NCBI GenBank assembly: GCA_028284865.1
Contig: JANQQV010000013.1
Location: forward strand, 1-64,000
Direction of reading: 5' to 3'
Source: Rhodothermales bacterium
Lineage (GTDB): Bacteria; Bacteroidota; Rhodothermia; Rhodothermales; UBA10348
DNA: 64,000 nucleotides
This document shows positions 29,429-46,493 of this stretch, one piece after another. The notes beneath the pieces were generated by a model. The model was not told the DNA's origin. It made no database searches and saw nothing but the letters and a program-made list of their open reading frames with translations. Positions within the stretch are counted from its first letter, which is position 1. The number at the start of each line of letters is the position of its first letter. The position numbers were made by a program, and so were the translations under genes.

Positions 29429-30346
29429 CTACTCCTGCACGGAGGTCATTTCTTCGTGTACCGCAGCAATATTGCCGGCAATGCCGTCAGGATTACCACC
29501 GATCATGTGGGCGTCGAAGCCCTCAAGGCCTTTGGCAGCGACTTCTTCGCGTGACATTCCAGCGTCGATTCCTGCCTCGACTGCGTCGCGCAGCGCGCCC
29601 AGGTAGTCGCGCATGACAAGAAGATCCTCGCGACGGCCCAGGATACCATTGACGGGGTTGGCGTGACCGAAGATGAACACGGTATTGTCGGTGAACAGGT
29701 CATGGGCCCGTTCCAAAGTGACCATCCAATTGGCGGTATCCGCTCCGGCTCCCAAATCGATGTAGGCGTGGCGGTAGTGGAAAACCAGGTCACCCATGTG
29801 GACGACGTCGGCGTGCTCAAAGTGGATGATCGCATCGCCAGCCGTGTGTGCGGGTCCATAGTGATGCAGGCGGATGGTCTCGTCGCCCACGTCTTTGGAC
29901 CACGACTCGGCAAAGGTCTCATTAGCGAAGGTCTGGTCATCCAGCGTGCCACGGCGTTCGGCCTGCATGCGCTGGAGCATGGGGACGTTGTCGTGGGCCA
30001 CGATTTGGTCGGCATCCGCCCCCAACACGCCATTTCCGGCGGTATGATCGCCATGATGGTGGGAGTTGATGAGCAGGTCGACCGTGCGGTCTGAGCGCTC
30101 CATCAATCCGTCGCGGCATTCGGCAGCCGATTCCGGGAACTGGGAGTCCACGGCAACCACGGCATCATCATTGATCAACCACCCGATCGTGCCGCCACGT
30201 GCTTCGAACCGACCCACTCCGCGTCGGATTGGGGTGAACAGTCCGTTGGTGCGGGCGAAGGCCGACAGAGGAAGCGGCGTGGAGCTGGCGAGCAGCCCCA
30301 ATCCAGCTACGGTGCCAGCCGACGAGAGAAAAGTGCGGCGTTTCAT
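29429..30346 (-). CDS. Tat-exported MBL-fold metallo-hydrolase
   Basis: The 305-residue product starts at ATG 30346 with a twin-arginine signal (KRRTFLSSAG). The metallo-beta-lactamase fold is shown by HHHGDH near residue 96, then PAHTAGD, HMGDL and GHANPV. These supply the usual two-zinc ligands. It probably hydrolyses a small ester, lactone or thioester; some homologues are annotated as quorum-quenching or glyoxalase-type, which cannot be decided here. Export by the Tat route means folding with metal in the cytoplasm. Confidence 0.87.
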   Translation of the reverse strand: MKRRTFLSSAGTVAGLGLLASSTPLPLSAFARTNGLFTPIRRGVGRFEARGGTIGWLINDDAVVAVDSQFPESAAECRDGLMERSDRTVDLLINSHHHGDHTAGNGVLGADADQIVAHDNVPMLQRMQAERRGTLDDQTFANETFAESWSKDVGDETIRLHHYGPAHTAGDAIIHFEHADVVHMGDLVFHYRHAYIDLGAGADTANWMVTLERAHDLFTDNTVFIFGHANPVNGILGRREDLLVMRDYLGALRDAVEAGIDAGMSREEVAAKGLEGFDAHMIGGNPDGIAGNIAAVHEEMTSVQE

Positions 30347-30472
30347 GGGATGCGTCAAGGTGATGGGTGGTCAGCGATGATCAGTAGTAAGGCGCCGGGA
30401 ATCACTGTAGGCGCGAGGGTCGATTCGTCATACCCGAGGAACCGCATTCGGGTTCGATGCTTAATGGGGGCC

Positions 30473-32020: not shown

Positions 32021-33751
32021 CTATCGACCAGCTGAGTCGGGGCTCGGATCTCGCACTTCGAATCCAAGCATCATGCCAGCGTGCAGGTGCTCAGCGATGT
32101 GACAGTGCGCCATCCATTTACCGGGATTCGTTACATCCACCAGGATGTCGATCGTCGATCCAACCGGAATAATCACCGTGTCTTTCCATCCCATGTTGCG
32201 ATTTGGCACGCCGTCGATGTGGGTCACCACGAATCGCTGACCATGCACGTGGAAGGGGTGATTCATCGGGTGGAATGAGGACGGGTCGTTGAAGACGCGA
32301 ATCTTGACGACATCGCCGACTTCCCACTGCCAGTTGATCTCCATGCTCTTCTGGCCCGTGTCCTCGTCGAGGAGCGTCCACTTGGCCTCATCGCCCGTCG
32401 ACAGCCAGTTCATCATCGGCATGCCTTCATTCCACTCGATGGGAGGGAAGTAAAGCGTGTCGACTTCCATCATCCGCATCGTCATGGGATGCAGGTCGTT
32501 CGTTTCGATCGTCAGGCGAAGATTGTGATCGGGCGCCTTGTCGAAGTAGCGACGGAAGTTGTCGATATCGGCAATCGTGTCTTCGTTGGCGCGCGCCTCG
32601 GCAAAGGCCTCACCGTGATCGTCGGCAACCGCGCCGGACGCCGTGACTGTTCCCAGAACATGCGTTTCCGGCACGAATGTGCCCCGGAAGTGATCGATGC
32701 CTTGAATGGCATTCGTGATCTCGAACGTGCCTTCTTCGTCGAAGTGCACATCCACGATGTAGCGCTCCGCAGGGCCGATGACGACGCTGCTGACGAACTG
32801 CTCACGCTCGAACTTGCTGACATCGTCGGCAATTACCTTGATGCGCGCCCCGCCGAAATTGACGTTGAACGTGCGTGTATTGGCCACATTGGTCAGATAG
32901 AATCGGACGACTTCGCCCGCTTCGATGTCCAGGTTGTAGTCGGTGATGCCATTGAGCAGCATCACGTTGCCGAAGCGGCCCATGAGCGCATGGGTCGGCG
33001 TCGTTTCGCCGTACGGATACAGGCCGTTTCCATCCATCAGGATGTCATCCAGGATCAGCGGGACTTCGCGGTTGGCAGGCCCGTAATAGCCATCCTCCGT
33101 GGGGTCGACCAGCATGTTGCCATACAGTCCGAGGTCCTGCTGTACGTCTTCACGCATGTGCGGATGGTACCAGTACATGCCCGTGTCCGGGAAGTCGAGC
33201 TCGTAGGTGAACGTTTCGCCCGTCTCGACCGGTGGCTGCGTCATGCCCGGAATCCCGTCGAACGCATTCTCGAGTCGCAACCCGTGCCAGTGCACTGTGG
33301 TGGGCATGTCGATGTTGTTGGTGAACTCGACAATCACCCTTGAGCCGCGGTCCGCGCGGATCAGCGGCCCCGGGTACATGCCACCGTAGGCCATCATGAC
33401 GAGTTCCTGCCCATTGATCGTCCGGCGAACGAGCGAAGCGTCCATGTGAAGCGTATCGCCATCGGCCATGTCGATGATTTCGGACGGCCGGGCTTCAGGG
33501 TACATGGACACATCCATTCCGAATCCAGGCAGGAACGCGCCGGTTTCGGGGACATCATCCATCATTTCCGGCATCATGGGCATGGTCATCCCATCCATGG
33601 GGGCCATGCGCCAAACCAGACTGTCGCCCATCGGCATGTCGTGGTTGTGATGCATGTGCATGGAGTGATCCATGCCGTCCTGCGCTGCGACGGGTAATGC
33701 GAGCAGTAGTGACAGGGTGGCAACGAGTATGCGAGGCTTCAGAAAGCTCAT
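32021..33751 (-). CDS. Multicopper oxidase with Met/His-rich N-terminus
   Basis: The 576-residue product has a signal peptide ending near VAAQ (about residue 24). Residues 25-70 are extremely rich in Met and His (HSMHMHHNHDMPMG, MTMPMMPEMM). Cupredoxin domains carry all copper motifs: HWHG (near residue 154) and YHPHM (near 195) for the trinuclear cluster, HPMNHPFHVHG (near 495), and HCHIAEHLHAGMM (near 552) with the Cys of the type-1 copper and an axial Met. Known relatives oxidise Cu(I), phenolics or metal ions in the periplasm. The Met/His segment fits copper binding. It is last on the minus strand after seven propeller genes and one small exported protein, with 37 bases to the latter. Confidence 0.93.
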   Translation of the reverse strand: MSFLKPRILVATLSLLLALPVAAQDGMDHSMHMHHNHDMPMGDSLVWRMAPMDGMTMPMMPEMMDDVPETGAFLPGFGMDVSMYPEARPSEIIDMADGDTLHMDASLVRRTINGQELVMMAYGGMYPGPLIRADRGSRVIVEFTNNIDMPTTVHWHGLRLENAFDGIPGMTQPPVETGETFTYELDFPDTGMYWYHPHMREDVQQDLGLYGNMLVDPTEDGYYGPANREVPLILDDILMDGNGLYPYGETTPTHALMGRFGNVMLLNGITDYNLDIEAGEVVRFYLTNVANTRTFNVNFGGARIKVIADDVSKFEREQFVSSVVIGPAERYIVDVHFDEEGTFEITNAIQGIDHFRGTFVPETHVLGTVTASGAVADDHGEAFAEARANEDTIADIDNFRRYFDKAPDHNLRLTIETNDLHPMTMRMMEVDTLYFPPIEWNEGMPMMNWLSTGDEAKWTLLDEDTGQKSMEINWQWEVGDVVKIRVFNDPSSFHPMNHPFHVHGQRFVVTHIDGVPNRNMGWKDTVIIPVGSTIDILVDVTNPGKWMAHCHIAEHLHAGMMLGFEVRDPSPDSAGR

Positions 33752-33788: not shown

Positions 33789-34358
33789 TTAGTAGCCGTA
33801 GACGGCGCAGGGCTCGGTCTCAAACGGGCCGTGGCCTGCCATGGTGTGCATGAGCCCACTGCGGGACATGCCGCGAGAGACAACCGGTCCGGTCCACATG
33901 GCGCCGGGTTCCATGTCGCGTGGCTCAAGCGTGATGACCAGGAGAAACTTGTTGAAGTCGGTCTGGCCGCTCACTTTCAGGTTTTCATCCAACTGACCCA
34001 GTCTGATGATCTGGTCGAGTTGTGGGGTCGTCACCCAGGCCACCAGGGCCTTGTCGTCCGCCAGTTTGACGTTGCTCATCGACACATCAATGTTGACGAG
34101 ATAGGAGCCGTCTTCTGAGAGCGAAATCCCGAACGGCGACTGGGCATAAGACACTTCGCCCACTCCTTTGGCCAATCGGGCTCCGGAGACTTTGCGTGTG
34201 GTGACCAGGTCGATTTCGTAGTAGTCGTTCGAGGCGGCCAACTCACAGACAGGGTCGAGCGAATCGGGGGCGCTTTCTGCCTGCTGGCCCGGGAAGACCA
34301 TCAGGGAAACAGCAACCAGAACCAGGAAGCCTGCCCGGGCGAGGAATTTCTCGGACAT
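33789..34358 (-). CDS. Exported protein of unknown function
   Basis: The product has 189 residues with a signal peptide (to about SAPDS, residue 30). The mature part has two Cys, one near the start (PVCELAAS) and one at the end (TEPCAVYGY), that could form a disulfide. It has alternating beta-strands, and EPRDMEPGAMWTGPVV near the end. No known domain was recognised. It lies 37 bases before the multicopper oxidase, on the same strand, and 240 bases after the first propeller gene with a hairpin between. Confidence 0.65.
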   Translation of the reverse strand: MSEKFLARAGFLVLVAVSLMVFPGQQAESAPDSLDPVCELAASNDYYEIDLVTTRKVSGARLAKGVGEVSYAQSPFGISLSEDGSYLVNIDVSMSNVKLADDKALVAWVTTPQLDQIIRLGQLDENLKVSGQTDFNKFLLVITLEPRDMEPGAMWTGPVVSRGMSRSGLMHTMAGHGPFETEPCAVYGY

Positions 34359-34523: not shown

Positions 34524-34551
34524 GGGCGGGGCGCCGAATGGCGCCCCGCCC
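34524..34551. terminator. GC-rich hairpin after the propeller array
   Basis: GGGCGGGGCGCC (34524-34535) and GGCGCCCCGCCC (34540-34551) pair perfectly with loop GAAT. It lies 47 bases past the stop of the last propeller gene (minus strand). There is no long T-run on either side, so termination may be partial and the oxidase pair could still be read through. Confidence 0.6.
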
Positions 34552-34598: not shown

Positions 34599-35933
34599 CT
34601 AGCGCGTGCCCTCACGGGACTCATCATCCCACTCCTGGGCCGAAGACACATTCGGCACGCCCCAGTCCTCGCCATTCCAGCCATTGAAGCCCTCCATGCG
34701 GAAGGTCCAGAAGCCGGTCGTCATGTCAGAGATCACAATCAGGCCGTCTTCATTGCGGACATCCACGCCAAAGGCGCCATTGGCCACGTTGCCTGCCATT
34801 CCACCATTATTGCGCGAACCGGTGAATGTATCGAAGTAAGCCACCGTACGCGGGTTCTCAGGGTCTTTCATCGAGAAGACCTGCAGGCCGTCGTGATAGC
34901 CGCTGACGAAGACATAGGGCCAACGAACTTCATGGTTGTGCACCAAGCCTTCCCAATGTGGCGTCCAGGCCGAGATCGGGTAGTTGATGTTGGAGCGCTC
35001 GCCATCGAGAGCCGGCTGCAAGTCGAAGATGCGCAGCGGGGCATACTTGTACTCGGTCTCCGCAACCACATAGCGGCCGTTCGGACCCGGCGTGAATGTG
35101 TGACCGGAGCGAACACCCGGGATGCCGGTCAAGGTGACGAGCAGTTCGGGGTTGTCGATATCCGTGAAGTCGTAGACGTAGTAGCCACCCGTGCCGCCTC
35201 CGTAGAAGCGATCCGTGCCGGTATCAACGTGGTACCCGGCATAAAAGTCGTGGTAGCCGCGACGGGTCTGCTCGGCAGGTGTCGGAATGCGACCGATGCG
35301 GGCGTTCTCCAGGTCGCCTTCGACCACTTTGCCCAGATCGTAGACGTTGGCAAACGCACCGGAAACGGTGGAGAGCAGCAGCACACGGCCGGACGAGTGC
35401 TTGTAGATAAAGATGTTGTGGAAGCCTCCCGGTGTATCCGGTTCGTGGATTCGGGCCACCTCATTTACAGTGGACGGATCCGGCAGTCCGGTCACATCCA
35501 ATACCACGGCGCCGAGGTCATGATTGGGACCACCCGCACCGAACTGCAGGGACTGCACCACATAGTAGCGACCATCCCACTTGAAGTACTTCACGTCCAT
35601 GCCGCCCGTGCGCATGTGCAGGTCCTGATTCTCGATCCGCCACTTGTAGATCACCTTGGGATTCGACGGGTCGGACAGATCGATGATATCCGTTCCCTTC
35701 TCGCCGGCCTCTGCATAGTGCATCCGGGATACGTAGGCGAACGGGCGACTGACCTCCTGTTCGAGATCCATGTCGGCAACACTGAGCCGCGGGCCCAATG
35801 GGATGTGCCCCAGCACCTCGACGTTTTCGCTACCGGGATTGGTGGGGGTCCACGGAGTGTCCTGGGCATGCGACGGGTTGAACGCAAAGGCCGTGATGAA
35901 CAGGCCAAGCAGCAGGAAAGTCGTTCGTTTCAT
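34599..35933 (-). CDS. LVIVD-type beta-propeller, copy 1
   Basis: The 444-residue product has a Sec signal peptide (ends near SHAQ, residue 24). The start at 35933 was preferred over 35987, which adds 18 poor residues. Propeller blades are marked by TDIIDLSDPSNP, GGFHNIFIYKHS, RRGYHDFYAGYH, SGHTFTPGPNGRYVVAETE and VHNHEVRWPYVFVSGYHDGLQVF. The end is EWDDESREGTR, a tail shared with copies 2-5. Resemblance is closest to copies 3 and 5 (LQPALDGE). It is last of the array, followed by a hairpin at 34524. The biochemical role is unknown; a repeated-His ligand site is inferred. Confidence 0.9.
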   Translation of the reverse strand: MKRTTFLLLGLFITAFAFNPSHAQDTPWTPTNPGSENVEVLGHIPLGPRLSVADMDLEQEVSRPFAYVSRMHYAEAGEKGTDIIDLSDPSNPKVIYKWRIENQDLHMRTGGMDVKYFKWDGRYYVVQSLQFGAGGPNHDLGAVVLDVTGLPDPSTVNEVARIHEPDTPGGFHNIFIYKHSSGRVLLLSTVSGAFANVYDLGKVVEGDLENARIGRIPTPAEQTRRGYHDFYAGYHVDTGTDRFYGGGTGGYYVYDFTDIDNPELLVTLTGIPGVRSGHTFTPGPNGRYVVAETEYKYAPLRIFDLQPALDGERSNINYPISAWTPHWEGLVHNHEVRWPYVFVSGYHDGLQVFSMKDPENPRTVAYFDTFTGSRNNGGMAGNVANGAFGVDVRNEDGLIVISDMTTGFWTFRMEGFNGWNGEDWGVPNVSSAQEWDDESREGTR

Positions 35934-36007
35934 GGTTGAAGTCAGGTCTGAGAGAGCGATGGGACGCGTTCCGATGGCGTCCAACATAGGAAAAAGCGGT
36001 AAGTGGA

Positions 36008-37336
36008 TCAGTGCGTCCCTTCTTTGGACTCCTCATCCCATTTCTGCACCGAGGAAATGTTGGGCATGCCCCAGTCTTCGCCATTCCACCCATTGAAGCC
36101 CTCCATGCGGAAGGTCCAGAAGCCAGTGGAAATGTCGGAGATGGTGATCAGTCCGTCCGCATTTCTGACGTCCACGCCAAAGGCTCCATTCCCGACAGCG
36201 CCGCCCATGACACCCACATCACGCGGGCCAGTGTAGGTGTCGTAGTAGCCGACGGTCACTGGATTCTCCGGATCCATCATCGAAAACACCTGCAGGCCGT
36301 CGTGGTAGCCGCTCACAAACACGTAGGGCCAGCGGACTTCATGGTTGTGCACAAGGTTTTCCCAGTGCGCCGTCCAGGCCGAGATGGGAGAGCGGATGTT
36401 CTCTGTCTCCCCGTCCATGGCGGGTTTCATGTCGAACATGCGCAGGGGCGCATATTGATACTCGGTTTCCGTGACGGCGTAGCGGCCGTCGGGGCTGGGC
36501 GTGAACGTGTGCCCGTATCGGACCCCGGTGATGCCGGTCAATGAGAACTCCAATGCCGGATTGGCTGGATCCGAGATGTTGTACACGTAATAGCCGCCGG
36601 AGCCGCCACCGTAGAACAGGTCAGCTTCCTTGTCAGGATTCCACGCGGCATACAAGTCATGGTAGCCGCCGCCTTCGCCGGGCACTGGGACGTTCCCAAC
36701 CAGTGCTCCCTCCATATCGCCACTGACAATCTTGCCCAAGTCATAGACGTTGGCACCAGGGCCACTCACGGTGGTCAGTAGCAGCACGCGTCCGTCGGAA
36801 TGCTTGTAGATAAAGATGTTGTGGAAGCCGAATGGCAGGTCGGGTTCGCGGATGCGAGCGACCTCGAATACGGAATCCGGGTCCGGGAGGCCGGTCACGT
36901 CCAGGATGTAGGCGCCCAGATCATTGTTTGGTCCCTGACCGAACTGGGTTGACTGCACCACATAGTAGCGGCCGTCATACTTGAAGTACTTGATGTCCAT
37001 GCCACCAGGACCTGTGTGCAGATCCGGGTTCTCCATCCGCCACCGAAGAAGCACCCTGGGGTTCGAGGGATCGGAGATGTCAATGATGTCCGTACCTCGT
37101 TCGGTGTATTCGCCTACGGTGCCTCGCGATACGTAGGCGTAGGGTCGCGACAATTCCTGCTCCAGCTCCATATCGGTGACATTCAATATGCCGCCCAACG
37201 GGATATGTCCGACGACCTCGATGTTGTCGGATCCGGGCTTCAGGGCTGTCCATGGGGTGTCCTGTTGGCCGAAGCTCTCCGAAGGAAGTGTCAGAAAAAG
37301 AACAAGCGTGGCGATAAGGGAAAGTCCGTACTTCAT
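36008..37336 (-). CDS. LVIVD-type beta-propeller, copy 2
   Basis: The 442-residue product has a signal peptide (ends near SFGQ, residue 24). It starts at ATG 37336; a longer frame from 37447 overlaps copy 3 and was rejected. It has the same blade markers as copy 1, but GGGYHDLYAAWN instead of RRGYHDFYAGYH and MKPAMDGETEN instead of LQPALDGERSN. These two differences are shared with copy 4. The tail is KWDEESKEGTH. Gap to copy 1 is 74 bases. Confidence 0.9.
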   Translation of the reverse strand: MKYGLSLIATLVLFLTLPSESFGQQDTPWTALKPGSDNIEVVGHIPLGGILNVTDMELEQELSRPYAYVSRGTVGEYTERGTDIIDISDPSNPRVLLRWRMENPDLHTGPGGMDIKYFKYDGRYYVVQSTQFGQGPNNDLGAYILDVTGLPDPDSVFEVARIREPDLPFGFHNIFIYKHSDGRVLLLTTVSGPGANVYDLGKIVSGDMEGALVGNVPVPGEGGGYHDLYAAWNPDKEADLFYGGGSGGYYVYNISDPANPALEFSLTGITGVRYGHTFTPSPDGRYAVTETEYQYAPLRMFDMKPAMDGETENIRSPISAWTAHWENLVHNHEVRWPYVFVSGYHDGLQVFSMMDPENPVTVGYYDTYTGPRDVGVMGGAVGNGAFGVDVRNADGLITISDISTGFWTFRMEGFNGWNGEDWGMPNISSVQKWDEESKEGTH

Positions 37337-37380
37337 GGGGAGGCTGTTTTGGATGGTGATCGGAGGGCGGTGATCATGGG

Positions 37381-38670
37381 CTATCGGGTGCCTTCTTTGG
37401 ACTCTTCGTCCCATTCCTGGACGGAAGAGATGTTGGGTACGCCCCAATCTTCGCCATTCCAGCCGTTGAAGCCGTCCATGCGGAACGACCAGAATCCGGT
37501 CGAACCGTCTGAAATGACAATCAGGCCATCCGCATTGCGCACGTCGACGCCAAAGGCGCCGTCCATCACGCCACCGTTGTCATTCGTGATGGTGTCGTAG
37601 AAACCGATTGTTTGCGGGTTTTCTGGGTCGGCCAGCGAGAAGACCTGCAGGCCATCGAGATACCCGCTCACGAAGACATAGGGCCAGCGCACCTCATGGT
37701 TGTGGACGAGGTTCTCCCAGTTGGCGGTCCATGCAGAGATCGGGTAATTGATGTTCGTCCGCTCGCCGTCAAGGGCGGGTTGGAGGTCAAAGATGCGCAG
37801 CGGTGCATACTGGTATTCCGTCTCGGCGATCACGTAGCGCCCATTGGGACCTGGAGTGAACGTGTGACCGTAGCTGACGCCCGGAATGCCATTGAGGGTG
37901 ATGCGCAGCTCGGGATTTTCGATATCCGAGATGTCATAGACGTAGTACCCACCGAAGCCCCCACCGTAAAAGCGGTCCTCCTCGGTATCCGGATGCCAGG
38001 CCGCGTAGAAATCGTGGTACCCGCGGCGGCCACCCGTTTCGCCCGGGATCGGAATGTTGCTGGTCAAGGCGTCTTCCACGTCACCGGAGACCACTTTCGT
38101 CAGGTCATAGACATTCGCGCCTGGGCCGCGCACGGTGGTGATCAGGTACGGTGTCCCGTTGGAATGCTTGTAGATAAAGATGTTGTGGAAGCCCCCTGGC
38201 ATGTCGGCTTCCCGGATGCGCGCTACTTCGACGACAGCGTCGGGATCAGGCAGACCCGTCACATCGAACACAACTGCGCCCAGATCATGGTCCGGTCCCT
38301 GGCTGAACTGCGTGGACAAGACAACATAGTAGCGGCCGTCGTGCTTGAACTGCTTGATGTCCAACGCACCGACACCCGCATTGATGTCATCATTGCTGTT
38401 GATCCAGCGCTTGAGCAAACGCGGTTTGGAAGGATCGGAGATATCGATGATGTCCATGCCGCGGTCATAGTTCGCGCGGTAGCGGGCTTTGGCCACGTAG
38501 GCATAAGGGCGATCGAGTTCTTGCTCCAACTCGATGTCGGCGACCGATTCCGGGGCGCCGAGCGGCAGGTGACCCTGCACGTGGATGTTGTCGCTGCCAG
38601 GGTTGGTAGCCGTTTGTGCCAGCGCGGGAGAGGCGATGGCGGCGATCAGGAGTGCGAAAAACAGTCTCAT
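37381..38670 (-). CDS. LVIVD-type beta-propeller, copy 3
   Basis: The shortest copy, 429 residues, with a signal peptide MRLFFALLIAAIASPALAQ. It starts at ATG 38670, 30 bases past the terminator at 38701-38731 on the minus strand, so it probably has its own promoter there. Blade markers are present (GGFHNIFIYKHS, RRGYHDFYAAWH, YGHTFTPGPN, VHNHEVRWP). It shares LQPALDGERTNINYP with copy 1, and YLDGLQVFS (Leu instead of His) with copy 5. The tail is EWDEESKEGTR. Confidence 0.9.
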   Translation of the reverse strand: MRLFFALLIAAIASPALAQTATNPGSDNIHVQGHLPLGAPESVADIELEQELDRPYAYVAKARYRANYDRGMDIIDISDPSKPRLLKRWINSNDDINAGVGALDIKQFKHDGRYYVVLSTQFSQGPDHDLGAVVFDVTGLPDPDAVVEVARIREADMPGGFHNIFIYKHSNGTPYLITTVRGPGANVYDLTKVVSGDVEDALTSNIPIPGETGGRRGYHDFYAAWHPDTEEDRFYGGGFGGYYVYDISDIENPELRITLNGIPGVSYGHTFTPGPNGRYVIAETEYQYAPLRIFDLQPALDGERTNINYPISAWTANWENLVHNHEVRWPYVFVSGYLDGLQVFSLADPENPQTIGFYDTITNDNGGVMDGAFGVDVRNADGLIVISDGSTGFWSFRMDGFNGWNGEDWGVPNISSVQEWDEESKEGTR

Positions 38671-38700
38671 GGGATTTGGCGGGTTGGGTACGACGAAAAA

Positions 38701-38731
38701 CGGCGGGCGGGATCGCAGATCCCGCCCGCCG
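38701..38731 (-). terminator. Intrinsic terminator inside the propeller array
   Basis: On the minus strand CGGCGGGCGGGATC and its complement GATCCCGCCCGCCG form a 14-bp stem with loop GCA (plus-strand arms 38701-38714 and 38718-38731). It is followed on the minus strand by TTTTT. It lies 18 bases past the stop of copy 4 and before copy 3, dividing the array into two transcription units. Confidence 0.9.
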
Positions 38732-38749
38732 AATGTCATCAAACAGGAC

Positions 38750-40072
38750 TTACTTGGTGCCTTCTTTGGACTCGTCGTCCCACTGCTGCACCGAGGAGAT
38801 GTTGGGCATGCCCCAATCTTCTCCATTCCAGCCATTGAATCCTTCCATGCGGAAGGTCCAGAAGCCGGTGGACATATCCGAAATCACAATCAGACCATCT
38901 TCGTTGCGGACATCGACACCGAAGGCGCCATTGCCCACAGCTCCACCCATGGCACCCACATCACGGGGACCTGTGTAGGTGTCGTAGTAGCCCACCGTGA
39001 CCGGGTTCTCGGGATCCATCATCGAGAAGATCTGCAGGCCATCGTGGTAACCACTGACAAAGACGTAGGGCCAGCGTACTTCGTGGTTGTGGACCAGATT
39101 CTTCCAGTTGGCCGTCCAGGCTGAGATAGGCCGGCGGATGTTCTCCGTTTCACCATCCATGGCTGGCTTCATGTCGAACATGCGCAGCGGGGCGTACTGG
39201 TATTCCGTCTCCGTGATGGCGTAACGACCGTCCGGGGAAGGCGTGAATGTGTGGCCCCAATCAACGCCGGTGATGCCCGTCATGGTGAACTCGAGCTGGG
39301 CGTCGGCCGGATCGCTGATGTCGTAGACATAATAGCCGCCCTGACCGCCACCGTAGAACAGGTCTTTCTCCAGATCCGGATTCCACGCAGCGTAGAGGTC
39401 ATGGTAGAAGCCGAACTCGTCGACGGCAATCGGCACGGTGCCGACGTAGGAATCTTCCACATCGCCACTGACTGCTTTACCCAGGTCGTAGACGTTGGCG
39501 CCGGGACCATTGATGGTCGTCAGCAGCAGCACGCGGCCGTCCGAGTGCTTGTAGATAAAGATGTTGTGGAAACCACCCGGCAGGTCGGGCTCATGGATGC
39601 GAGCCACTTCAAAGACCTTCGTCGCGTCCGGAAGTCCGGTCACGTCCAGGATGTAGGCGCCGAGGTCCTGGTTCGGTCCTTGGCCAAACTGCGTCGACTG
39701 CACGACATAGTAGCGACCGTCATATTTGAAGTACTTGATGTCCATGCCGCCGAGTCCGGTGTGCAGATCCGGGTTCTCCATGCGCCAGCGCAGCAGCACT
39801 TTCGGATTGGCAGGGTCTCCGATGTCGATGATGTCCGTTCCGCGTTCGGTGTTCGGGCCGACCGTACCACGGGCCACGTAGGCATATGGACGAGACAGTT
39901 CCTGTTCGACTTCCATGTCCATCGTGTTCAGGATGCCGCCCAGCGGGATGTGTCCTTCCACGGTGATGTTGTCTGAACCAGGCTTGAGTGTGGTCCAGGG
40001 CGTTTCGTCCTGTGCCGAAGCTGGTACCACAAGCAGGATGGCCAGGGTCAACAGCGGGATCAGTCGTTTCAT
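38750..40072 (-). CDS. LVIVD-type beta-propeller, copy 4
   Basis: The 440-residue product has a clean signal peptide (to SAQ, residue 21). Positions of the invariant His can be read here: H41 (GHIPLG), H169 and H176 (GFHNIFIYKHS), H224 (FYHDLY), H274 (GHTFTP) and H330 (NHEVRWP). H169, H224, H274 and H330 are spaced 50-56 residues apart, about one propeller blade. It shares MKPAMDGETENIR and AAWN with copy 2. The tail is QWDDESKEGTK. It is the last gene before the internal terminator. Confidence 0.92.
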   Translation of the reverse strand: MKRLIPLLTLAILLVVPASAQDETPWTTLKPGSDNITVEGHIPLGGILNTMDMEVEQELSRPYAYVARGTVGPNTERGTDIIDIGDPANPKVLLRWRMENPDLHTGLGGMDIKYFKYDGRYYVVQSTQFGQGPNQDLGAYILDVTGLPDATKVFEVARIHEPDLPGGFHNIFIYKHSDGRVLLLTTINGPGANVYDLGKAVSGDVEDSYVGTVPIAVDEFGFYHDLYAAWNPDLEKDLFYGGGQGGYYVYDISDPADAQLEFTMTGITGVDWGHTFTPSPDGRYAITETEYQYAPLRMFDMKPAMDGETENIRRPISAWTANWKNLVHNHEVRWPYVFVSGYHDGLQIFSMMDPENPVTVGYYDTYTGPRDVGAMGGAVGNGAFGVDVRNEDGLIVISDMSTGFWTFRMEGFNGWNGEDWGMPNISSVQQWDDESKEGTK

Positions 40073-40124
40073 GAGATTGGCTGGTAGGTTGATTACTCAG
40101 GATTTGGCGGGTGAACACGCACAA

Positions 40125-41444
40125 TCAGCGCGTTCCTTCTTTGGATTCTTCGTCCCAGTTCTGGACCGAGGAGATGTTGGGCATTCCCCAGTCTTCTCCG
40201 TTCCAGCCGTTGAAGCCGTCCATACGGAAGGTCCAGAAGCCGGTGGACATATCGGAAATGACGATCAGGCCGTCTTCATTCCGGACGTCGACGCCAAATG
40301 CGCCGTTGATGACCGGGTTGAATCCGTTGTGATTCGAGCCAAGATAGGTGTCATAATAGCCAACGGTCTGCGGATTGTGCGGGTCTTCCAGCGAGAACAC
40401 CTGCAAACCGTCCAGATAGGCGCTCACAAACACGTAGGGCCAGCGCACTTCGTGGTTGTGGCTCAGGTTCTCCCAATTGGCCGTCCAGGCTGAAATGGGC
40501 TGGTTGATGTTCAGACGCTCTCCGTCCAGGGCCGGCTGGAGATCGAAAATGCGAAGCGGTGCATACTGATACTCAGCCTCCGCGACGACATATCGACCAT
40601 CGGGTGAAGGGGTGAACGTGTGCCCCCACGTCACACCGGAAATGTTCTGCAGCGTGACCCGGATTTCAGGATTGTGGATGTCGGTGATGTCGTAGACATA
40701 GTATCCGCCCGAACCACCTCCGTAGAAGCGGTCTTCGCCCGAGTCCGGATGGTAGGCAACGTAGTGGTCGTGATAGGAACGCCTGACCGACTCCGGCTCA
40801 GCGGTAGGGATCGTGGCCACGTAGGAGTTATCGATATCGCCCGAGACCGCCTTGTTCAGGTCGAACACCTGAACCATGTCGCCCCGCACGGTGGACAGCA
40901 GGTAGATGTTACCGTCCGAGTGCTTGTAGATAAAGATGTTATGCATGCCACCCGGGTTGTCAGGAAGCACCCATCGCCCGACTTCTGTCAGCGTTTCGGG
41001 CAGATCAGTCACGTCAAACAGTACGGCTCCCAGCTCGTAGTGCGGCCCGCTGCTGAATTCAAAGGACTGTACCACGTAGTAGCGGCCACCCGTTTTGAAA
41101 TACTTGACGTCCATGCCGCCCCGATTCGGAAGCAGGTCCTGGAATTCCAACCGGAAACGGTGGATGACTTCCGGGCTGGACGGATCCGAGATGTCAATGA
41201 CATCCATGCCTTTCGGGCCGCCATCCACGATGGATGCGCGTCCCACGTAGGCATACGGGCGATTCAGCTCCTGCTCCAGCTCAATGTCAGTGACACTGGA
41301 ATGCTTGCCGAGCGGGATGTGACCCACGACTTCCATGTTGTCAGAGCCAGGTTTGAGCGGCGTCGCCTGGCCCCAGGCAGCTGGGACGATGAGGCCAGCG
41401 ACCAGCAGAAGCGCGATCAGTCGGAATGTGGATGAGAATGTCAT
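40125..41444 (-). CDS. LVIVD-type beta-propeller, copy 5
   Basis: The 439-residue product has a signal peptide (to AWGQ, about residue 26). It starts at ATG 41444 (a longer frame from 41552 would overlap copy 6). Divergent details are GGMHNIFIYKHS (Met for Phe), RRSYHDHYVAYH with an extra His, and SHNHEVRWP. It shares LQPALDGERLNIN with copies 1 and 3. The tail is NWDEESKEGTR. Gap to copy 4 is 52 bases. Confidence 0.9.
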   Translation of the reverse strand: MTFSSTFRLIALLLVAGLIVPAAWGQATPLKPGSDNMEVVGHIPLGKHSSVTDIELEQELNRPYAYVGRASIVDGGPKGMDVIDISDPSSPEVIHRFRLEFQDLLPNRGGMDVKYFKTGGRYYVVQSFEFSSGPHYELGAVLFDVTDLPETLTEVGRWVLPDNPGGMHNIFIYKHSDGNIYLLSTVRGDMVQVFDLNKAVSGDIDNSYVATIPTAEPESVRRSYHDHYVAYHPDSGEDRFYGGGSGGYYVYDITDIHNPEIRVTLQNISGVTWGHTFTPSPDGRYVVAEAEYQYAPLRIFDLQPALDGERLNINQPISAWTANWENLSHNHEVRWPYVFVSAYLDGLQVFSLEDPHNPQTVGYYDTYLGSNHNGFNPVINGAFGVDVRNEDGLIVISDMSTGFWTFRMDGFNGWNGEDWGMPNISSVQNWDEESKEGTR

Positions 41445-41508
41445 GTTGCGGGTGAGGATTGCGGGTTGCGAGAGATATTCAGGTTGTTGCGGCCTTCCAA
41501 GCGGATGA

Positions 41509-42885
41509 TCATTCGTCGAACATGCCTTCCCAGTTCTGAGCGCTGGACACATTGGGCATGCCCCAGTCTTCGCCGTTCCAACGATCGAAGCCTTCCATCT
41601 TGAAGGCCCAGAAACCGGTCGTCATGTCGCTGATGACGATGAGGCCATCGGCATTGCGGACATCGACGCCCCAGGCGCCGTCGTAGACCTGCCATGTGTA
41701 CGGACTACCCATGCGCTCCATGGCAGCGCCACGGTCGTTATGGATTCCGTTGAACGTGTCGTAGTAGGCGACGGTGTACGGATTTTCAGGGTCCACCATG
41801 TTGAAAACGCCCAGGCCGGTCTGGTAGCCACTCACAAAGACATAGGGCCAGCGAACCTCGTGGTTGTGGGCGATGCTCTTCCAATCGGCATGCCAGGCAC
41901 CGACGGCGTGGTCGATGTTCTTGTCTGGCAGTTGGCCATTGAGGGCGGGTCGCAGATCAAAGATGCGGAGAGGCTGGTACTGGAACTCTGTTTCGCCCAC
42001 GGCAAAGTTGCCATCCGGCGTCGGCGTGAACGTATGGCCCCAGGCCACCCCGGGTACGCCCACCATGGTGGCCAGCAGTTCGGGGTTGCCGAGGTCTGTG
42101 ACGTTGTAGACGTAGTAGCCACTGCCCCCGCCTCCATAGAAACGATCCTGACCTGTTTCCGGGTGGTATTGGACCATGAAGTCGTGGTAGCCGCGCGACC
42201 ACATGCCCTCGGTCTGGTGAACGGGCACACGGGCAATCAGCTCACGATTGTCGTCGCGAAGCACCGGGTCCATCTCGGTCTGTTCGCCATCGACGAACAT
42301 GGCCATGTCGAACACCTTGGCGTATCCGGCTGAGGTGGCGAACAGCAGGGGTTTGCCCGAGCTGTGGTTATACATAAAAATGTTGTGGAAGCCACCGGGT
42401 GATTCGGACTGACGAACCCGACCGACTTCGCTGTACGACTCCGGTAGATCCGTCACGTCGAAGACGACCGCGCCGACTTCCGAATTCGGTCCGGACTGGC
42501 CCAGCTGCATGGACTGCACGTAGTAGTAGCGGCCATCATGCTTGAAATAGCGCCCGTCCATGGCGCCGCCGGTGTGGAGGTCTTCGTTCTCGATGCGCCA
42601 GCGATGGATCACTTTCGCATGATCCGGATCACTCAGGTCGATCACGTCGAATCCGATCACGCCGTTGCGACGTGCCACATAAGCGAAAGGACGTTCCAGC
42701 TCTTGTTCGATCTCGATATCCGATATGGTGCCCGCTGCCCCGAGCGGAATGTGGGACATCACCTCCATATTGGCCGATCCGCGCTGTCCGGGAGGCGGTG
42801 GATGCGAAGGCTGCTCTATGCCCATCTGGGCGGTGGCGGGAAGGGTTACCAGGAAGGCGGCAACCAACAGGGAAAGTCGTTTCAT
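41509..42885 (-). CDS. LVIVD-type beta-propeller, copy 6
   Basis: The longest copy, 458 residues, with signal peptide to TAQ (residue 20). It has a longer loop before the YHD blade (about 20 extra residues) and a longer one near residue 390 (RGAAMERMGSPYTW). It keeps all six invariant His but lacks the shared WD(D/E)ES(K/R)EGT tail, ending NWEGMFDE. Translation starts one base after the stop of copy 7 with a ribosome binding site inside copy 7's end. Confidence 0.9.
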   Translation of the reverse strand: MKRLSLLVAAFLVTLPATAQMGIEQPSHPPPPGQRGSANMEVMSHIPLGAAGTISDIEIEQELERPFAYVARRNGVIGFDVIDLSDPDHAKVIHRWRIENEDLHTGGAMDGRYFKHDGRYYYVQSMQLGQSGPNSEVGAVVFDVTDLPESYSEVGRVRQSESPGGFHNIFMYNHSSGKPLLFATSAGYAKVFDMAMFVDGEQTEMDPVLRDDNRELIARVPVHQTEGMWSRGYHDFMVQYHPETGQDRFYGGGGSGYYVYNVTDLGNPELLATMVGVPGVAWGHTFTPTPDGNFAVGETEFQYQPLRIFDLRPALNGQLPDKNIDHAVGAWHADWKSIAHNHEVRWPYVFVSGYQTGLGVFNMVDPENPYTVAYYDTFNGIHNDRGAAMERMGSPYTWQVYDGAWGVDVRNADGLIVISDMTTGFWAFKMEGFDRWNGEDWGMPNVSSAQNWEGMFDE

Positions 42886-42886
42886 G

Positions 42887-44185
42887 TTACCACCTCTCCG
42901 ACCCGATGGGTCCGTTGTCCCAGTCCTGGACCGAGCCTACGTTCGCGAATCCCCAGCCTCGACCGTCCCAGTTCTCGAATCCTTCCATGCGGATGAGCCA
43001 CAGGCCGGTGTTGACATCCGTGACGGCGATCAAGCCGTCCGCATTGCGAACATCCACGTCCCAGGCTCCGTTGCGATGGGTGCGCTCGTCTGCCAGTCGG
43101 GCGCGAGGTCCATCCCACGTGTCGTAGAAGCCGACGGTGTAGGGCTCGAACGGATTCATCATGTTGAATACCTGCAATCCATCATCCATGGCCGCTGTGA
43201 ACACGAAGGGCCAGCGCACCTCATGATTCTCGGCCAGGTTTCGCCAGTCCGCAGTCCAGGCGCCCGCAGCCACACGAATACGTGGCACGGTCCCTTCGAA
43301 GACCGGACGCAAATCGAAAATGCGCATGGGAGCCGTCCGGTATCCGGCGGCCGTCACCAGGTGCGTGCCGTCAGGGGTCGGAGAGACGGCGTGTCCGATC
43401 TGTACGGCGGCTGAATTGACTTCAGTGATCAACTCGGGATTGCCCGGGTCGGTGATGTTGAAGACGTAGTAGCCGCCGGCACCTGCCGCATAGAGGCGGT
43501 CGGTCTCGGAATCAGAATGCCACTGGGCCATCATGGCGTGGTATCCGTAGTCGACGTTGGTCACCTGCTCTGGGAGTGCGTAGGAGGCCATCGGATCCGA
43601 ATCGCCGTCCAGAAGACCATCGATGTCGAAGACATCAATCGGGCCACCACCGGCGGCCATCAGATAGCTGCGTCCGTTGGAATGGCGATACGCAAACACG
43701 TGATGGTAGCCGCCCTGACGGGATACATCGGCAGCGGCATCGAACTGACCCTCTTCCGGATCAGTGACTTCACGAATGCTGAGTCCACTTGCATGCGAGA
43801 CCGCGAGATAGTGGCGGCTGCCATGCCGGAATAACGTCAGGTCGCCAACGGAAGGACTATCGGGACGCCAGGTGTCCAGTACGCGGGGATGATTGGTCTG
43901 ATTGATGGTGATGGCAACGATTTCCGCGCCCTCAGCATCCTCACGAGCCACGAACACAAAGGGGCGACCTTCTTCCTGATCGATGACCAGGTGACCGGTC
44001 CCGCGTCCCAGCGCTTCAAAGCCTGCCGAAGGCGACTCGCGGGATTGCATGCCGCCAAGGGGCAAATGCCCGACCAGCTCCATGTTGCGGCTGCCTCGAG
44101 ATCCGTCGTTTTGCGCAGCGGCGGGGTACGTCAACCCGAACACGAGTATGACCATACCGAGCCAACGCATCGGATGAGTTCGCAT
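42887..44185 (-). CDS. LVIVD-type beta-propeller, copy 7 (most divergent)
   Basis: The 432-residue product has a signal peptide (VILVFGLTYPAAAQ). It starts at ATG 44185; 44170 and 44218 are other options. This is the most diverged copy. YKHS is YRHS, GHTFTP is GHAVSP, VHNHEVRWPYVFVSGY is AENHEVRWPFVFTAAM. The LVIVD-like entry strands are weak and the tail is different (DWDNGPIGSERW). All six invariant His are kept. As the first gene of the array it may be the oldest or the least constrained copy. Confidence 0.88.
   Translation of the reverse strand: MRTHPMRWLGMVILVFGLTYPAAAQNDGSRGSRNMELVGHLPLGGMQSRESPSAGFEALGRGTGHLVIDQEEGRPFVFVAREDAEGAEIVAITINQTNHPRVLDTWRPDSPSVGDLTLFRHGSRHYLAVSHASGLSIREVTDPEEGQFDAAADVSRQGGYHHVFAYRHSNGRSYLMAAGGGPIDVFDIDGLLDGDSDPMASYALPEQVTNVDYGYHAMMAQWHSDSETDRLYAAGAGGYYVFNITDPGNPELITEVNSAAVQIGHAVSPTPDGTHLVTAAGYRTAPMRIFDLRPVFEGTVPRIRVAAGAWTADWRNLAENHEVRWPFVFTAAMDDGLQVFNMMNPFEPYTVGFYDTWDGPRARLADERTHRNGAWDVDVRNADGLIAVTDVNTGLWLIRMEGFENWDGRGWGFANVGSVQDWDNGPIGSERW
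42893..42899 (-). promoter_or_regulatory. Ribosome binding site of propeller copy 6
   Basis: GGAGAGG on the minus strand lies seven bases before the ATG of copy 6, inside the last codons of copy 7. It supports translational coupling of the two genes. Confidence 0.7.
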
Positions 44186-44242
44186 GATTGCAGAAATGTG
44201 GGTGGAAAATGGCCTCAATCGGCCAAAACGGGGGATTTCACG

Positions 44243-45223
44243 TTACGAAGTGTGACGTGGAATTGCAAAGGTCCCGTGAAGGGGGGCTAGCGCGTCCGAG
44301 AGCTTTTCGTACTCCTGAATGAGAGCCATCCTCAACACGCTTGCGCGCTCTGAAAACGCGCGTTGCTTCAGCGTGTAGGATTCCCGGCCTTCTCGTGTCT
44401 CGATACGCACCGGCTTCAGTCCGTGATCGCTCAGATCGTACGGACTTGCAGCCATGTCGAGCGAGCGGATTTCCAGAGCCAGAAGAAAGGCGTCCAGGAT
44501 GAGGGAAGAGGGGATCCACGGTGCCCGCTTGAACGCCCATCGATACACGTCCATGTTGGCGTGCAGACACCCGGGCTGTTCGTGATCATGCATCTGCCCG
44601 CGCGTCAGCTGGATCGGATTCAACGGACGCGCCGGCTCGGTAAAGAAGCGGAAGGCGTCGAAGTGGGTGCATCGCAAACCCGACGATTCAACGACCTGGG
44701 CGAGTTCTTCGTCCGAGACACGCAGCGGAACGGCGTCATGTCGCTGGTCGGACGTTCGATAGAGCATGGCCCATTCGTGCAGCCCGAAGCAGCCGAATCG
44801 TGCGGGTCGGCTTTGCGTAGCGATCAATAGATCCTGCATCCATTGCGTTCCTGTGATGAACCGGTCTGGATGGGGGCCGAGGTTGCCCTCCGTAGGCCAC
44901 TGCAGCCTTCCCTCGGAGTGTGCCACATACCCATCTCGCTCCGGAAACGACTTCGCGTCGGCGCCCAGAAGGAGCACTCCGGTTCCAGGGTGCCAGCGGC
45001 GCAGATGCGCAGGGCGGAATCGGTAGTATTCGAACAGGAAGTCCGCGACGGGATCCTTTTCATGACGGGATCGCCGGGCTACGTGTGGCCCCACGAGGCG
45101 ATCAAACCGCTCCTCATGCTCCTTCATCGCCAGCTCCCATTCGTCTTGCCGCAGGATAGCGTGAACCTGCGGAGCTTCCATTGCGGGAGCCGAATCGAGC
45201 TGGTGAGTGCGAGGAGGCGTCAT
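44243..45223 (-). CDS. Protein of the family annotated as 3-methyladenine DNA glycosylase
   Basis: The product has 326 residues from ATG 45223 (other ATGs at 45334 and 45181). Strongly conserved blocks are CFGLHEWAMLYR, CTHFDAFRFFTEPARPLNP, QPGCLHANMDVYRWAFK and LEIRSLDMAASPYDLSD. I recall the same blocks in widespread actinobacterial and myxobacterial proteins labelled 3-methyladenine DNA glycosylase. The blocks are rich in His, Asp and Cys, as for a metal- or substrate-binding pocket, and they lack an obvious HhH or alkA-like helix-hairpin-helix. The name should therefore be treated as provisional. It is divergent from the serine hydrolase gene. Confidence 0.65.
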   Translation of the reverse strand: MTPPRTHQLDSAPAMEAPQVHAILRQDEWELAMKEHEERFDRLVGPHVARRSRHEKDPVADFLFEYYRFRPAHLRRWHPGTGVLLLGADAKSFPERDGYVAHSEGRLQWPTEGNLGPHPDRFITGTQWMQDLLIATQSRPARFGCFGLHEWAMLYRTSDQRHDAVPLRVSDEELAQVVESSGLRCTHFDAFRFFTEPARPLNPIQLTRGQMHDHEQPGCLHANMDVYRWAFKRAPWIPSSLILDAFLLALEIRSLDMAASPYDLSDHGLKPVRIETREGRESYTLKQRAFSERASVLRMALIQEYEKLSDALAPLHGTFAIPRHTS

Positions 45224-45332
45224 GGGGGCGGCATACGTGAGTGGGAATTGGGGGATCCGATCCCACTCTCCAATCAAAGGCCTTGAACCCCTACATTGAG
45301 TCGCAGTGAGTTTCGCCTGAACGATTGATGCC

Positions 45333-46493
45333 ATGCCCCCATTCCAACGTCAACTGGCTTCCCTGTCCGCAACGCTCGTCCTTTTGGTCGTGGCCATCAC
45401 GGGTTGCTCGGCAACACCCCAATCAGACCAATCCCAGTCGGATCAGGCGCATTCGGATGTCCAAGCTGTGGTGGATTCGGCCCGGACGCTGGTCATGACT
45501 GAGTTTGAGGAGCAGAACTATCCCGGGATGTCGATTGCCGTCGCTGTCGAAGGCGAGGTCGTATGGTCGGAAGGAATCGGCTTTGCTGATGTGGAAGCTC
45601 AGGTGCCGGTGACAACGGCGTCCAAATTCCGGGTCGGGAGCGTGTCCAAGCCATACACAGCGACGGCCATCGCGCAGTTGATGGTCGATGGCCGCCTCGA
45701 TGTAGATGCACCTATTCAGGACTACGTGCCTACTTTTCCCGAGAAGCAGTGGGCGATCTCCACGCGTCAGGTTGGCGGCCACATCGCTGGCATCCGCCAC
45801 TATCTCGGCAACGAGAACTTCTCGGATGTTCGCTACGAAACGGTAGACGCGGGCCTGGACATCTTCAAGGATTCGCCGCTCCTGTTCGAACCCGGCACGG
45901 ACTATTCCTACTCCTCCTACGGTTGGAATCTGGTCTCAGCTGTCGTGGAAGGCGCCTCGGGCAAGCCATTCCTGGACTACATGGACGAACACGTCTTTGG
46001 ACCGCTCAATATGACATACTCCGAAGCCGATTGGGCTGACGAGGACATCGAGGGCCGGGTCTCGTTTTACGTTCGCGGAGATGATGGTATGCCGCAGGTA
46101 GCTCCTTACGTGGACAACAGCTACAAATGGGCTGGGGGAGGCTTCTTGTCGACCCCTGAGGACATGATTCGCTTTGCGGAGGCGCATCGCACACCGGGAT
46201 TCTTGACGGAGGAAGCTCTCGAATTCCTGCAGCGCACCCAGCAACTCAATGATGGCAGTGACACGGGATACGGAATCGGGTGGTCGGATGATGAGGACAG
46301 TGCGGGTCGTCGTCTCGTGGGACATACGGGCGGTAGTGTCGGTGGAACGACGCTCATGACCATGAACCCTGAGTCGGGTGTGATCGTAGCCATGGCAATC
46401 AACCTGTCACGAGCCGATCTCTCCATTGGACGCCAAGTGATGCAGCTCTTCCTGGACGAAGTCGCCTCCCCGGATCGTGATACAGACCACTAG
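45333..46493 (+). CDS. Class C beta-lactamase-like serine hydrolase, lipoprotein
   Basis: The 386-residue lipoprotein has lipobox AITGC (near residue 25). SxxK is SVSK (near residue 107). The second motif reads YSSYGW instead of YxN. The third is HTGGSVGGTT (near residue 330). GxLD...IQDYVPTFPEK and IAGIRHYLG (usual HTSG replaced) are also typical. The substrate is unknown, perhaps D-amino-acid peptides or esters. The small cyclophilin-like gene starts ten bases after the stop. Confidence 0.86.
   Translation: MPPFQRQLASLSATLVLLVVAITGCSATPQSDQSQSDQAHSDVQAVVDSARTLVMTEFEEQNYPGMSIAVAVEGEVVWSEGIGFADVEAQVPVTTASKFRVGSVSKPYTATAIAQLMVDGRLDVDAPIQDYVPTFPEKQWAISTRQVGGHIAGIRHYLGNENFSDVRYETVDAGLDIFKDSPLLFEPGTDYSYSSYGWNLVSAVVEGASGKPFLDYMDEHVFGPLNMTYSEADWADEDIEGRVSFYVRGDDGMPQVAPYVDNSYKWAGGGFLSTPEDMIRFAEAHRTPGFLTEEALEFLQRTQQLNDGSDTGYGIGWSDDEDSAGRRLVGHTGGSVGGTTLMTMNPESGVIVAMAINLSRADLSIGRQVMQLFLDEVASPDRDTDH

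Follow-up and report, generated by a model that had tools for sequence, protein, structure and literature searches.

SELENBP1 is a copper-dependent propeller whose copper has been proposed to be held in the central cavity by H73, H74, H137, H140, D189, and E252 (PMC10362175). A second propeller with a metal site is Sb-PTE/haloalkylphosphorus hydrolase (PDB entries 5hrm and 5ioj), whose seven-bladed fold, going by the title of a paper cited in PMC11656708, houses a binuclear metal centre. The choice-of-anchor B proteins (TIGR04312) are LVIVD-like propellers, and multicopper oxidases of the CueO/CopA and laccase types are Met-rich enzymes that carry type 1, 2, and 3 copper-ligand motifs. Here, we analyse a stretch of 64,000 nucleotides from a Rhodothermales bacterium (contig JANQQV010000013.1, referred to herein as the window), which encodes an array of seven propellers (P) followed by a small protein (S) and a multicopper oxidase (M), all predicted to be exported. 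The data point to the array and its partners forming an undescribed exported copper-linked system, not a stand-alone array.

Seven tandem genes for putatively exported proteins

The array consists of seven consecutive open reading frames (ORFs) on the minus strand (positions 34599 to 44218 of the window). After refinement of the starts to the signal-peptide methionine, copies 1 to 7 are 444, 442, 429, 440, 439, 458, and 427 amino acids long; copy 7 (42887 to 44170) is the first gene of the array and copy 6 (41509 to 42885) the second, and they are followed by copy 5 (40125 to 41444), copy 4 (38750 to 40072), copy 3 (37381 to 38670), copy 2 (36008 to 37336), and copy 1 (34599 to 35933), which adjoins the S gene. 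The N-termini of all copies, read by eye, resemble Sec signal peptides (e.g., MKRLIPLLTLAILLVVPASAQ), with a hydrophobic stretch and then an A-x-A-like site ahead of a glutamine. Pairwise identity among the copies ranges from 38.6 to 83.6%, and their alignment contains 109 invariant columns, of which exactly six are histidines (H41, H169, H176, H224, H274, and H330 in the numbering of copy 4, which is used throughout). The ORFs, the alignment, and direct reading of the N-termini therefore confirmed what an earlier, sequence-only reading of this DNA had described, namely, seven tandem same-strand genes with signal peptides and six invariant histidines. The invariance of the six is weak evidence by itself, since so many columns are invariant among the seven copies.

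Between copies 4 and 3 lies a 14-bp GC-rich hairpin followed by TTTTT (38701 to 38731, minus strand), which is terminator-like, might function as such, and is the sole copy of that hairpin in the genome. A 12-bp GC-rich hairpin with no T-run after it (34524 to 34551, minus strand) is located between copy 1 and S, and strong hairpins 3' of the last propeller gene were also observed in several related arrays. Because the two strong hairpins split the region, the copies may be transcribed as two or more units. A search for consensus sigma-70 promoters gave no signal above chance. The gene immediately upstream of the array, also on the minus strand, encodes a 363-amino-acid protein (44243 to 45334) with relatives in 10 related loci; neither this protein nor its relative in locus L041 had a Pfam match.

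Propeller fold and family relationships

The AlphaFold2 model of copy 4, generated from a 49-sequence alignment (pLDDT, 90.7; pTM, 0.89), contains 28 strands that form seven four-stranded blades, with the first strand (residues 36 to 42) closing blade 7. The beta-propeller fold claimed earlier was thus borne out, as a seven-bladed one. The accompanying label "LVIVD" is a loose one: four copies were scanned against Pfam, none had a family at cut-off, and the LVIVD repeat (PF08309) scored 12.4 bits in copy 1 (gathering score, 20.2) and was absent from the other three. The only NCBIfam match was choice-of-anchor B, at 36.7 to 56.7 bits in the four scanned copies and 45 to 48 bits in two single-copy relatives, all below the cut-off of 100. 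About ten further weak homologues are encoded in the same genome, and three of those that were fetched scored 424 to 459 bits with TIGR04312. The subthreshold scores of the array proteins, together with canonical choice-of-anchor B homologues elsewhere in their own genome, make the array family a divergent relative of the choice-of-anchor B propellers. Besides their low scores, the array proteins differ from that family in having the additional histidines H41, H176, and H330 and in travelling with S and M.

Metal-binding propellers of other families had been named as precedents in the sequence-only reading. No SELENBP1/methanethiol oxidase family and no nitrous-oxide reductase family was found in the Pfam and NCBIfam scans at an E value of ≤1. 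SELENBP1 and bacterial methanethiol oxidase are seven-bladed like P but belong to a different propeller family, and the likeness would be at most a convergent analogy. The VIA-align list for copy 4 was filled by WD40 chains (Z of about 32), which, at the level of the model, shows a common fold and no function. When copy 4 was searched by itself against PDB sequences, nothing matched. A profile search returned Sb-PTE as the best and only significant match (E, 2e-4), and the top Foldseek match in the PDB was the same propeller phosphotriesterase of Sphingobium (5hrm; E, 1.3e-11), with 16% identity.

With Sb-PTE as the closest solved fold, P could be a metallohydrolase of this type, in which a mono- or binuclear centre of a metal other than copper (Mn, Zn, Fe, or Ca) in the channel cleaves ester or phosphoester bonds and the product becomes the substrate of M; the aspartates conserved beside several ring positions (D52, D111, D225, and D387; see below) would suit a binuclear centre. 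We consider this unlikely: the sequence match to Sb-PTE is confined to the generic repeat motif G-l-v-D-i-s-D-p..P, and the tight tie of P to S and a multicopper oxidase would be unexpected for such a hydrolase. We know of no multicopper oxidase partner of Sb-PTE.

A predicted histidine ring at the channel mouth

In propellers, the starts of the inner strands ring the mouth of the central channel. The LVIVD register (x-H-D-V-x-V) places these starts in copy 4 at M51, M110, H169, H224, H274, H328, and V386, with spacings of 59, 59, 55, 50, 54, and 58 residues, and the positions just after them are D52, D111, N170, D225, T275, N329, and D387. Four consecutive blades (blades 3 to 6) have a histidine at the equivalent inner-strand start (H169, H224, H274, and H328), and a fifth histidine, H330, lies two residues past H328. 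Because the inner-strand starts ring the channel mouth, a shared site of the four histidines is likely, judging from the register. The sequence-only reading had H169, H224, H274, and H330 recurring at the spacing of one blade; this holds for the first three, but according to the register and the choice-of-anchor B alignment, the equivalent residue in blade 6 is H328, not H330. Likewise, its suggestion that the histidine set converges in the channel can apply to H169, H224, H274, and H328, with H330 nearby, but not to H41 and H176, which lie in the last strand of blade 7 and in the loop joining strands 1 and 2 of blade 3 of the model, respectively, away from the inner-strand starts.

Over 180 homologues, each of the six histidines is 95.6 to 98.3% conserved, all six are kept in 166 sequences, and H328 is 89% conserved. 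Replacement of these residues in single-copy homologues had been named beforehand as evidence against the idea; among the 180 sequences, if one that is truncated by its contig is set aside, the only replacements are in array members orthologous to the most divergent copy. Outside the clade of the first array gene (gene-1 clade; copy 7 in the window), conservation of the six histidines rises to 99.4 to 100%, and 103 columns in this part of the family are at least 98.5% conserved.

The same ring core is present in the choice-of-anchor B paralogues. In nine of these from the same genome, the motifs HN(I/V/L), HD(A/V)QC, HQGW, and (D/A)H(N/D)(L/M)Y match H169, H224, H274, and H328 and are spaced about one blade apart (e.g., 500, 558, 612, and 666), with HDxQC found in six of the nine. 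Since the canonical paralogues share the four-histidine core, it is older than the array and does not mark it.

Copy history and variation of the ring

The gene-1 clade, which was picked by a glutamate at position 328 in place of the histidine, is divergent, and its members are progressively losing the channel histidines and aspartates: H274 is conserved at 56%, and D52 and D225 at 22%, while 12 other checked invariant residues stay at 100%. With H328 excluded, 10 of the 11 ring positions are relaxed in this clade, compared to 46 of 91 other conserved columns (P = 0.01), which is modest evidence from the alignment that the ring residues may form one functional unit.

In a FastTree phylogeny, the first and second array genes form their own clades across arrays (support of 1.0 and 0.999, respectively). 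Copy 1, which adjoins S, clusters with the copies at the last position in other arrays and shares a region of the tree with single-copy propellers of other phyla, where deep branches are weakly supported. A recent, lineage-specific amplification of the whole array is ruled out by the placement of copies 6 and 7, each in one orthologous clade that spans the arrays of many genomes. Multicopy arrays with up to 9 copies were found in most searched genomes of the family to which the window belongs, and elsewhere in the order Rhodothermales P occurs as single copies or small sets.

Loop variation among the copies in the window is greater on the histidine face than on the other side of the propeller (P = 0.001 for all copies and P = 0.004 when copy 7 is excluded), and several loops opposite the histidine face are almost invariant (WP at 334 to 335 and RNEDGL at 389 to 394). 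The array can be described, as proposed, as a family of related exported propellers, with the addition that its loops are more variable on the histidine face. Since the copies keep the site but vary the loops around it, they probably serve different substrates or partners.

In propellers of the LVIVD type, histidines at these positions may serve the structure of the protein, which counts against a metal-binding role. This holds for the inner-strand starts considered here. P could accordingly be a metal-free docking or scaffold propeller that anchors or presents the S-M oxidase, with the array copies offering different surfaces, and both the presence of such histidines in choice-of-anchor B proteins of unknown function and the near-invariant loops opposite the histidine face, which would suit a binding interface, fit this explanation. 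We nevertheless think it improbable, since the histidines and aspartates are conserved at 99 to 100% in 162 sequences from three phyla and are relaxed jointly in one paralogue clade, which exceeds what a scaffold would need.

Propellers are encoded in a conserved cassette with S and M

The array belongs to a conserved same-strand cassette, P-S-M, which encodes a propeller, the small exported protein, and the multicopper oxidase. Neighbourhood clustering was applied to the genes flanking 78 loci on named genome contigs; 60 loci from Rhodothermales, Gemmatimonadota, and Acidobacteriota had at least 2.5 kb of downstream sequence and were testable, and S and M lie downstream of P on the same strand in 52 of them. 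Six exception genomes were tested: a full S is encoded elsewhere in five of them, and in the sixth only an S-like stretch within a long frame was found. In the phylum of the window, P was found in 20 of 394 genomes and S in the identical 20, which span 12 genera. In Gemmatimonadota (the phylum of locus L099), P was found in 88 of 249 genomes and S in 85 of those 88 (Fisher P = 3e-44, uncorrected for shared ancestry); P without detected S was seen in genomes G445, G640, and G641. A further 18 Gemmatimonadota genomes have an S-like sequence without P, mostly in frames of 700 to 1,050 amino acids that resemble S-M fusions, and in nine loci a single reading frame contains both an S-like and an M-like domain. 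Cassettes with S-M and only one copy of P are common, which rules out the array as a stand-alone unit; the conserved unit is the propeller with S and M, often with one propeller, and not the array.

Some additional observations were made on the cassette and its surroundings. Outside the window, the same genome encodes a second S-like domain (G000:C22:73368-73865) in an 827-amino-acid frame that is probably an S-M fusion, and similar long frames are present in many Rhodothermales and Gemmatimonadota genomes, some of which have no propeller. Near-identical cassettes occur in loci L062 to L071, which are titled partly Gammaproteobacteria and partly Gemmatimonadetes/BD2-11, suggesting that some of these public bins are mislabelled. 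The window cassette is flanked by two plus-strand genes for serine beta-lactamase-fold proteins (PF00144; 30350 to 31933, with C-terminal TPRs, and 45333 to 46493), relatives of which flank other arrays. A metallo-beta-lactamase-fold protein with a weak TAT-signal match is encoded at 29429 to 30358 (minus strand); among NCBIfam models it comes closest, at a score below cut-off, to the SoxH-related quinoprotein relay hydrolase, and relatives are found near several related arrays.

S and M have copper-related features

S (33789 to 34358, minus strand) is predicted to be an exported protein of ∼190 amino acids with a signal peptide and a conserved C-terminal Met/His/Cys motif (RGMSRSGLMHTMAGHGPF....CAVYGY). 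Its model, of fair quality (pLDDT, 82.8), consists mostly of beta strands that form a sandwich. No Pfam family was above cut-off for S (nearest, RskA_C; E, 0.0012), and a fold search gave no confident match. The best of the weak fold matches were to the copper/iron-binding P19, FetP, FtrA, and HftA group (E, 4e-3; TM of about 0.3), a model-based resemblance that we treat as a lead only.

M (32021 to 33751, minus strand) is a complete multicopper oxidase, predicted to be exported, with a Met/His-rich N-terminus and with PF07732, PF00394, and PF07731 all above cut-off. The copper-ligand motifs HWHG, HPH, HPFHVHG, and HCHxxEHxxxGMM are all present and are invariant or nearly so across 45 aligned sequences, in which several internal methionines are invariant as well. 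M shares its ligand motifs and Met-richness with the CueO/CopA-type and laccase-type oxidases but differs from them in scoring below all equivalog cut-offs, in being paired or fused with S, and in its association with propellers. The adjoining copper oxidase provides a copper context for the metal binding that the sequence-only reading had supposed for the propellers; no evidence points to the binding of haem, the other ligand that it had suggested.

The cassette could also serve copper tolerance, with M as a cuprous oxidase, S as a copper chaperone, and the P copies as copper stores or sinks. The Met/His-rich N-terminus and invariant methionines of M and the Met/His/Cys tail of S are in line with this, and P could hold copper in its channel. 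It appears distinctly doubtful, since M is far below the cut-offs for CueO (NF008205; 154 bits, cut-off of 525) and CopA (134 bits, cut-off of 479), no copper ATPase, CopC, or Cus gene is present among the scanned genes beside the window cassette, and seven diverging copies are a poor fit to a simple sink.

Discussion

Based on the predicted fold, conservation, gene order, co-occurrence, S-M fusion, and the copper-ligand motifs of M, P is most likely an exported metal-binding propeller, probably binding copper, that serves the M oxidase. At the channel mouth, H169, H224, H274, H328, and H330, together with D52, D111, D225, and D387, most likely bind a metal ion. Three things make copper the best guess for this metal: the presence of M, the Met/His/Cys tail of S, and SELENBP1 as a precedent. 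P, S, and M, which by their signal peptides would be exported, are proposed to act together outside the cytoplasm: M would reduce oxygen at its own copper cluster, S would pass copper or dock the partners, and P would bind or oxidise a substrate or present the metal to M. Duplication in this Rhodothermales family has given 4 to 9 copies of P that keep the site and vary in the loops on its face, with the orthologues of the first copy now losing the site. The most economical reading is a three-part system composed of a metal/substrate site in P, an oxygen-reducing copper cluster in M, and S as an adaptor or copper carrier. That the cassette was expanded in this way, with exported parts acting jointly, P binding metal, and the copies diversified, is a tentative conclusion that we place slightly short of an even chance. 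M could instead be a copper-detoxifying oxidase of the ordinary sort, with P as an unrelated partner, and Sb-PTE, which has the closest solved fold, is not a copper oxidase but a hydrolase whose metal centre is binuclear. A bolder form of the proposal, which we regard as rather unlikely, is that P is a new copper or mixed-metal propeller enzyme within an exported system that consumes oxygen, where P would be the half that binds the substrate and S-M its redox partner; the arrays would then be sets of enzymes that share one oxidase and act on different substrates.

The literature searched contained nothing joining LVIVD repeats with multicopper oxidases and no mention of choice-of-anchor B. The parts are of known kinds, and the cassette, the arrays, and their spread appear to be undescribed in that literature. 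The propeller is present in about a third of the sampled Gemmatimonadota and in scattered Rhodothermales and Acidobacteriota, nearly always with S, and yet the scanned propellers all fall short of the Pfam cut-offs and no family fits S convincingly. Should the propellers be oxidase-coupled metal sites, they would represent an exported system for oxidation or copper handling that is widespread but functionally undescribed, and the choice-of-anchor B propellers, which have the same histidine core, would gain a first functional context.
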